Assembly: GCA_937139605.1 (NCBI GenBank)
Contig: CAKZQG010000033.1
Coordinates: forward strand, 1 to 12,000
Direction of reading: 5' to 3'
Length of the DNA: 12,000 nucleotides
Source: an uncultured bacterium
GTDB taxonomy: Bacteria > DRYD01
Shown here: positions 1-12,000 of the stretch, one piece after another
How positions within the stretch are numbered: the first letter of the stretch is position 1
How the letters are laid out: each line of letters begins with the position of its first letter
The notes under the pieces: model-generated
Told to the model about the DNA's origin: nothing
What the model saw: only the letters and a program-made list of their open reading frames with translations
Database searches by the model: none
Program-made: the position numbers and the translations under genes

Positions 1-73
1 ATCTCTTTTTTTCTTAAATATAACAACACATCAAATGGATTATATACTTTATCAGCTAAAAAATTATACCCAT

Positions 74-109
74 TATAACGAACGCAGTATGCGTGAGTTA
101 TATGAAATA
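74..109. repeat. Short palindromic insertion element, copy B (TA target)
   Basis: Read on the plus strand, the copy has an outer stem TATAAC (74-79) / GTTATA (97-102), an inner stem ACGCA (82-86) / TGCGT (90-94), a GTA loop and a TGAAATA tail. It interrupts the ATPase-like gene between the codons for Trp-Tyr and Asn-Gly. Removing 34 bp restores the family reading EWYNGYNFLADKVYNPFD. The flanks support a 2-bp TA duplication (4-bp TATA is also possible here). Outer stem, spacing and tail match the copy at 784-819, while the inner stem differs in sequence but still pairs. Confidence 0.8.
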
Positions 110-783
110 TACCACTCTTTTACTTCTTCTATATTTATATCTTCCAAATACTCCTTAAAATAATATTCCAATTCACTTTGTGTATATCCACATATATCTC
201 CATATCTCTTATCTAACGAAATATCCTTTAACTGATTTAATCCACTAAATAGTGATACCTTCGCAAATTTTGAAACCCCCATTACTAACACAAATCTTAT
301 ATATCTATCTAACCCTTTTAACACTGAATAAAACTCCTTTAATATTTTTCTAACCTCTTCTGCTTGTTTCTTATCTTCTATTAGATCTAATATTGGCTTA
401 TCATACTCATCTATTAACACTACTACCTGCTTACTATATTTCTCACTTAAGTCTATTATTAACTTTTTAAATCTTCTTATTCCATCTTTCTTTTTATCTT
501 CTTTTATCTTATATTTCCTATAGTTAATCTCTAGTTCATCTTCTATCCTATTATATACTTCCTTATACTCTCTTATATCTACTGAAAAATCTATTTTAAT
601 AACCGGATAGCTTTCATTCCAATCCCATTTATCTTCTATGTATAACCCTTTAAATAATTCCCTTTTCCCTTCATATATATATCTTATTGTTGATAGTAAT
701 AACGACTTCCCAAATCGTCTTGGCCTACTTAAAAACACATACTTTGAACTACTTAACAATTCATATATATACTTTGTTTTATC

Positions 784-819
784 TATAACGAAGGCGTAAG
801 CCTAATGTTATATGAAATA
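784..819. repeat. Short palindromic insertion element, copy A (TA target)
   Basis: This is the second copy of the element at 74-109, in the same orientation. The outer stem is TATAAC (784-789) / GTTATA (807-812), the inner stem AGGC (792-795) / GCCT (800-803), the loop GTAA, and the tail TGAAATA. It sits between the codons for NNYIYV and DKTKYIYELL of the ATPase-like gene. Removing 34 bp, counting one TA as target duplication, joins these two segments in frame. Both copies have exactly 17 nt between the outer stem arms. No other copy is visible in the window. Confidence 0.8.
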
Positions 820-1070
820 CATATATGTAATTATTTGTTATCAATTCTTTAAAATCACTTATTCCAATTGGTAATTTTTTCATAAAAAACACCTCTTTAA
901 ATAAACATTTTCTAATTAATATTTAAATTAATCTTAAATATTATTCCTTTTTCATTAGTTAATTATTTATTCAATAATGAAAGTCCAACTCTAAAAACAT
1001 CATTCAAACGAAAAAATTAGCTTGTAAGTGAAAGGAAATGAAAAATTAACTCTAAAAATTTTAATATTAT

Positions 1071-1138: not shown

Positions 1139-1441
1139 CTACTCTATCTTTATCATATACATATCAAAATTATTACGATTAGAGCTATATCCAGTGATAT
1201 AAATTTTACCACTTCTATCTACATGCAGGGAATTTCCATAATCATCCTGATTCCCGCCTGCAATGTTATGAAATATAGAGACAACATCATTATCTCCGTC
1301 TTGATCTATATCTCTGTTTAGTAAAATTGTTTTTATGCCGCTACCTCCTCCAATTCCAAATAAATTACAACTTACTATAAAAACCATAACTAAACTTAAT
1401 ATAATTCCTTTTAATGTTAATAAAAGTAATGTTCTTTTCAT
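1139..1441 (-). CDS. Small lipoprotein with a single SBBP-type repeat
   Basis: This 100-residue protein starts with a lysine/arginine and hydrophobic signal peptide ending in a lipobox (IVSC, Cys25), so it should be lipid-anchored in the envelope. After a glycine-rich linker comes an acidic DIDQDGDND stretch (44-52), resembling calcium-binding DxDxDG loops in FG-GAP or dockerin-like repeats. The last 40 residues (GGNQDDYGNSLHVD, SGKIYITGYS, FDMYMIKIE) match an SBBP beta-propeller repeat. Such proteins usually carry many repeats, and one blade cannot close a propeller, so this may be an internally deleted relic or a unit that assembles with others. An AAGGGGTG ribosome binding site precedes the ATG and a TATAAT box lies at 1463-1468. 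The gene has its own terminator. The signal peptide resembles that of the lipoprotein starting at 11756. Function unknown. Confidence 0.7.
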   Translation of the reverse strand: MKRTLLLLTLKGIILSLVMVFIVSCNLFGIGGGSGIKTILLNRDIDQDGDNDVVSIFHNIAGGNQDDYGNSLHVDRSGKIYITGYSSNRNNFDMYMIKIE

Positions 1442-11755: not shown

Positions 11756-12000
11756 ATGAAAAAAAAGCTTATATTAATAATATTAGGTGCTATTTTAAGT
11801 ATAGTATCAATTTTAATAGTTAGCTGTAATTTAGGAGGTAGTAATAAATTCATTAATCTTTTAGGTAGCGGTTCAATAAGTGGTGGAGGTAGTGGGAATA
11901 TTCATAGTTTTCCTTTATTCTTTGATGGCCAATATCCAAATGATTATTATCCAAATGATTATGAAGAGTTCTTTTCTATTGTACCTACTTCTGATGGTGG
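11756..12000 (+). CDS. Lipoprotein, probably propeller-repeat type, 5' part only
   Basis: Only the first 81 codons are in the window. The protein opens with lysines and a hydrophobic stretch ending in the lipobox IVSC (Cys24), so it is a predicted lipoprotein. A Gly/Ser-rich linker and an aromatic, repetitive patch (YPNDYYPNDYEEF) follow, and the visible end, SIVPTSDGG, resembles the start of propeller-type repeats of the QTSDGGYIVAG kind. The signal peptide and lipobox (AILSIVSILIVSCNLGG) closely resemble those of the small lipoprotein at 1139-1441 (IILSLVMVFIVSCNLFG), suggesting one paralogous family. Initiation depends on an unusual G8 tract. The function is unknown. Confidence 0.7.
   Translation, partial: MKKKLILIILGAILSIVSILIVSCNLGGSNKFINLLGSGSISGGGSGNIHSFPLFFDGQYPNDYYPNDYEEFFSIVPTSDG

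Follow-up and report, generated by a model that had tools for sequence, protein, structure and literature searches.

The analysed window, a stretch of 12,000 nucleotides that comprises all of contig C33 of the source genome (G000), begins with a DUF1703 gene on the minus strand, which starts with an ATG at 881-883 and whose 3' part is lost past the contig start. DUF1703 proteins combine an AAA-ATPase-like domain with a PDDEXK nuclease motif at the C-terminus (PMC6387759). Full paralogs fit this layout, the nuclease part being recognised by reading the sequence. In the window, the reading of the gene is disrupted by each of two short palindromic elements, M1 (TATAACGAACGCAGTATGCGTGAGTTATATGAAATA) and N (TATAACGAAGGCGTAAGCCTAATGTTATATGAAATA). 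Both segments had been described in a first-pass annotation, which had also claimed that each copy breaks one protein reading; they were found with that sequence at those coordinates, and both interrupt the DUF1703 gene. The features are arranged as follows:

820..883, minus strand: first piece of the DUF1703 gene, MKKLPIGISDFKELITNNYIYV
784..819, plus strand: element N, TATAAC-GA-AGGC-GTAA-GCCT-AAT-GTTATA-TGAAATA, antisense to the DUF1703 gene; a 34-bp insert within the conserved YVDKT motif
110..783, minus strand: middle piece of the DUF1703 gene, AAA-ATPase_like (PF09820), with RPRRFGKS and LIDEYDKP, ending ..KEWY
74..109, plus strand: element M1, TATAAC-GA-ACGCA-GTA-TGCGT-GA-GTTATA-TGAAATA, antisense to the DUF1703 gene; a 34-bp insert within the Tyr codon of WYNGY, a conserved motif
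1..73, minus strand: last piece of the DUF1703 gene in the contig, NGYNFLADKVYNPFDVLLYLRKKE.., truncated by the contig start

The stretch between the two inserts matched PF09820 at 1.8e-53 in a profile search. A straight in-frame translation across N and M was rejected; the remaining frames are rich in stops. M1 is solitary in the window and stands in tandem with a second unit, M2, in six paralogs. Elsewhere in the window, two inverted stretches of 66 nt (1361-1426 and 11768-11833) are 73% similar; they are the signal-peptide parts of two predicted lipoproteins that are paralogs of each other (ORFs 1139-1441, minus strand, and 11756-11998, plus strand); similar genes are present on other contigs and in genomes G001 and G002.

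The elements share the plan TATAAC-GA-stem-loop-stem'-(G)A(N)-GTTATA-TGA..ATA, in which N has AAT replacing the second GA. The inner stem comprises 4-5 bp and the loop 3-5 nucleotides, followed by an unpaired tail (TGAAATA), and insertion occurs at a YTA site. Most elements are about 34-38 bp long, with variants of 21 and about 54 bp. The tail reads TGA(A/T)..ATA in the elements read, which for most corresponds to TTTCA on the other strand. Single-strand folding of the window inserts M1 and N gave z-scores of about -4, and each has a pairing inner stem (ACGCA/TGCGT in M1, AGGC/GCCT in N). In eight distinct elements, eight different inner stems are perfectly paired (AGGC/GCCT, ACGCA/TGCGT, ACACA/TGTGT, GGTA/TACC, GAGA/TCTC, GGGA/TCCC, GGAAA/TTTCC and CGATA/TATCG); only a degraded copy of the sister species (G001) fails to pair there. 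Swapping arms between elements yielded full stems in 0 of 72 combinations, and the observed pairing was reached in 0 of 100,000 permutations, in a test whose arms were assigned by eye, somewhat favouring pairing. Element K additionally carries the outer stem TACAAC/GTTGTA, in which a double change from T-A to C-G keeps the pair. The eight paired inner stems and the compensation in the outer stem of K show that the hairpin structure is conserved, so that the covariation seen earlier between the two window copies proves stronger than first described.

Element-free paralogs of the same genome supply the empty sites. The empty N site (784-819) reads ..ATGTAGATAAAAC.. in these paralogs, and the empty M site (74-109) reads TGGTATAATGGG; the latter can also be read as TGGTATAATGG in paralog C9 and in element-free paralogs. 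Both sites carry one TA when empty and a TA on both sides when filled, and 34 bp are inserted, which bears out the proposed exact 34-bp boundaries with a TA duplication. Filled and empty states are freely mixed: N is filled and M empty in C9, and the reverse is true for C4b.

A genome-wide pattern search, which had been suggested as a check, was run with ATAACGA-N(1-24)-GTTATATGA and yielded 35 matches in the source genome and none for a reversed-pattern control. Copies thus exist elsewhere in the genome, and their recurrence is not due to chance. The same pattern matched twice in the sister species, the only further member of the genus examined, and was not found in five further genomes of the phylum; the element is therefore present in two of the seven genomes examined from the phylum. 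With a covariance model built on the outer stem, two more elements of the source genome (K and L) were recovered, together with a degraded copy in the sister species. In total, about 37-39 copies were counted in the source genome. They occupy seven sites (N, M, R, D, C, K and L), all within DUF1703 paralogs, which make up roughly 1.6% of the genome; the pattern scan and the covariance model found no intergenic copies there. PF09820 matched 19 times in this genome. Many contigs break at the DUF1703 family, so that the copy number has to be taken as a minimum; contig ends lie inside or adjoin DUF1703 genes in C3, C4, C6, C12, C26, C28, C33, C35, C36 and C42. The sites, including one confined to the sister species, are the following:

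Site N: YV|DKT, 34 bp
Site M: W|YNGY, 34 bp per unit, M2 and M1 in tandem in six copies, a single unit in the window
Site R: after SKFAKVSL, opposite orientation, 34 bp
Site D: FDI|EYIS, 36 bp
Site C: VYI|MEFK, adjoining the nuclease motif, 21 bp
Site K: C-terminal, opposite orientation, 36 bp
Site L: after EFKV, about 54 bp
Site E (sister species): GLYI|EDKW, 36 bp, filled in two DUF1703 paralogs and in frame in both

Three copies in total were found in the sister species. Two are located at site E in DUF1703 genes, one of which is otherwise a complete reading frame of 519 amino acids. The third is the degraded copy (L168, G001:C100:10974-11011), which lies in a broken gene that is HD-domain-like by sequence reading and is the only copy in both genomes found outside DUF1703 genes. 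The pattern was not found in viral contigs. An exact-pattern scan of GTDB contigs, which may have left out the record of the own species, gave 46 scattered matches in unrelated taxa; these are presumably chance or unrelated matches. Matches in G006, G002 and contig C88 of G001, with E-values of 0.07-0.4, look like chance, and position 5107 of contig C23 carries the half-motif TATTTCATATAAC only and was rejected as an element. Contigs C16, C22 and C26 of the source genome contain repeated TATAAGGAATTGAAAC motifs which resemble CRISPR repeats. On the minus strand of contig C35 (L193), near the end of a DUF1703 gene, lies an open frame that resembles Rpn-type recombination-promoting nucleases in its sequence.

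The effect on the host genes depends on insert length. The 34-bp elements (N, M1, M2 and R) put the reading out of frame, with a stop close to each, and the elements C (21 bp), D, E and K (36 bp) and L (about 54 bp) are in frame; D, E and L encode a similar peptide (xYN...VIE). Five of eight element-bearing copies, but not one of the eight without an element, have further lesions (Fisher p=0.026), a comparison in which the paralogs recombine and hence are not independent, and in which the lesions may partly be assembly errors. The lesions are the loss of one base in C4a, a stop in C4b, a change from TGG to TGA in C5a, a frameshift in C5b, and a start loss together with a 14-bp insertion in C9. 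A nonsense codon is also present in one of the two E-bearing copies of the sister species. In the other three of the eight bearing copies (C45, C6 and C33, the last cut by the contig start), the visible parts are open except at the inserts. In view of these lesions, most element-bearing copies are probably pseudogenes.

The element-bearing copies do not form a clade; they are mosaics whose nearest neighbour shifts by segment and is often element-free. Intact paralogs of the source genome form one clade, separate from the sister species. Overall diversity is 21% in bearing and free groups alike, and copies of N differ pairwise by 0.8%, against 3-17% for the flanking sequence up to 10 bp from N and M. 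As a probe for extra constraint, about 3 substitutions in about 1030 nt of element, counted by hand, were set against the private coding changes of the copies, a comparison in which the diversity of the flanks may predate the spread of the elements. For near-invariant elements between varied flanks, either recombination at the edges or constraint must be assumed. Paralog C9, which has no M insert, and the window copy, which has one, are identical over about 148 bp downstream from site M but diverge on its upstream side, as would follow from a recombination breakpoint at the insert. With the paralogs in separate clades and no site common to both species, the simplest dating places the insertions after the split, and the fact that each site has its own element type favours duplication and gene conversion over repeated insertion as the route of spread.

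We consider it probable, at roughly 0.65, that these inserts represent a genus-specific, REP/RPE-like family of very small palindromic mobile elements, which is nearly confined to a recombining DUF1703 family. Mobility is suggested by the tandem units M2-M1, by the reversed orientation of R and K and by the occurrence of both filled and empty states at each site. According to this reading, elements would have inserted at several DUF1703 sites after the species split. An out-of-frame insertion of 34 bp would have turned the copy into a pseudogene, and an in-frame insertion would have been tolerated as a short extra peptide. Paralog duplication and frequent short-tract recombination may then have carried each site-specific element to many copies, and the hairpins possibly favour recombination breakpoints. 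A putative inserting enzyme would presumably act in trans on the folded strand. The confinement to DUF1703 genes counts against a mobile element, since a random inserter should also hit between genes, and survival in dispensable genes does not account for the absence from intergenic DNA. The absence of matches to the two transposase families searched and the near-invariance of the elements between varied flanks count against it as well. Furthermore, private nonsynonymous and synonymous substitutions stand at 34:30 in element-bearing and 35:37 in intact element-free copies, against a neutral ratio of 2.74:1; the broken copies thus still look constrained, which also counts against the mobile-element reading. 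Such similarity between the two groups is expected, however, if gene death is recent or if conversion imports functional sequence.

Several known systems resemble the element in part. Rickettsia palindromic elements (RPEs) are palindromic repeats of about 150 bp which reside inside unrelated protein-coding genes of Rickettsia, several of them in frame and adding a short peptide (PMC10969869). In-frame insertion, with the reading open across the palindrome, is likewise seen in C, D, E, K and L, but not in N, M and R; by description rather than sequence comparison, the present element differs from RPEs in its size of 21-54 bp, in its near restriction to one paralogous family and in that several copies are out of frame. 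The repetitive hairpin elements of fungal and sponge mitochondria are tiny and potentially mobile, keep their stems while other parts vary, and form double hairpins by tandem insertion (PMC2800124); unlike the element described here, they are organellar and mostly intergenic. Tagged REPs (GTAG/CGTC) comprise 20-40 bp with one hairpin and a short unpaired tag at its foot, and occur as grouped copies with varying stems, some of them intragenic (PMC3733652). The size, the single hairpin with compensatory stems and the unpaired tag of the present element recall them, and mobilisation of a REP-like element by a RAYT/IS200-type Y1 transposase could be considered; this appears rather unlikely, as Y1_Tnp (PF01797) had no match in the drafts of G000 and G001, the tag is TTTCA/TGAAA and neither GTAG nor CGTC, and REPs are predominantly extragenic, whereas all copies of the source genome lie inside DUF1703 genes.

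The first-pass annotation had linked the TA duplication to IS630/Tc1-mariner elements and their miniature derivatives, a link that the analysis does not support. TA at each end and precise empty sites would fit such an element, whose autonomous partner would carry the end signature TATAAC..GTTATATGAAATA. However, the IS630-type domain DDE_3 (PF13358) likewise had no match in either draft, and TA flanks are weak evidence, being uninformative in AT-rich sequence. The elements are also far smaller than familiar MITEs and have an internal hairpin instead of the usual terminal inverted repeats, which cannot fit in 34 bp. An IS630/Tc1-mariner origin is therefore improbable. The search covered two transposase families (Y1 and DDE_3) in two drafts that are 87-89% complete, and for this reason a missing transposase is not decisive. 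With neither domain found and a differing tag, the element is placed beside REPs and RPEs and filed in neither.

It could also be speculated that a recombination system which shuffles DUF1703 cassettes acts at the inserts or leaves them behind as by-products, the broken copies serving as a silent archive. All copies but one are found in this family, its paralogs are mosaic, and the identity between C9 and C33 begins exactly at site M. Mosaicism is equally present in element-free copies, however, and this explanation has little probability. Intragenic recombination among expanded DUF1703 paralogs is known from Cardinium and Rickettsia, and the Cardinium family is described as mosaic with no mention of such inserts (PMC6387759).

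Finally, ribosomes might hop the hairpins by programmed translational bypassing, as in T4 gene 60 and the byps of Magnusiomyces, which would leave the genes functional. Byps in the mitochondria of Magnusiomyces capitatus are short out-of-frame coding inserts with many copies per genome (PMC5009743). The three bearing copies that are open apart from their inserts, including the window gene, and the substitution ratio far under neutral are consistent with bypassing, as are the location of the inserts in conserved motifs, the TAT found at M both as the pre-gap codon and as the codon before resumption, and the fact that the elements are more conserved than neighbouring synonymous positions. Hopping cannot mend the other lesions in five of the eight copies, however, and does not require the in-frame lengths of D, E, K, C and L; R has the opposite orientation, take-off and landing codons are unmatched at N (GTA/ATA) and R (CTA/ATA), and intact element-free paralogs exist. 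In contrast to T4 gene 60 and the byps, most bearing copies thus carry extra lesions, orientations are mixed, in-frame variants occur and take-off and landing codons are not always matched. Bypassing is disfavoured and very improbable, and the stronger claim that the 34-bp inserts are several bypassing elements per gene, with DUF1703 nucleases made from interrupted genes, is likewise very improbable; if true, the inserts would be a chromosomal counterpart of the Magnusiomyces mitochondrial byps. With the interrupted yet otherwise open copies, bypassing in a bacterium could be tested clearly at the bench.

If the reading as a family of palindromic mobile elements is right, few mobile DNA elements in a bacterium would be as small as these inserts, whose folded structure is conserved and which would target, or survive in, almost one gene family only. 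How a 34-bp hairpin moves without a recognisable transposase, and whether hairpins of this kind are what drives expanded DUF1703 nuclease families to diversify by recombination, would then become questions that are testable in one genus.
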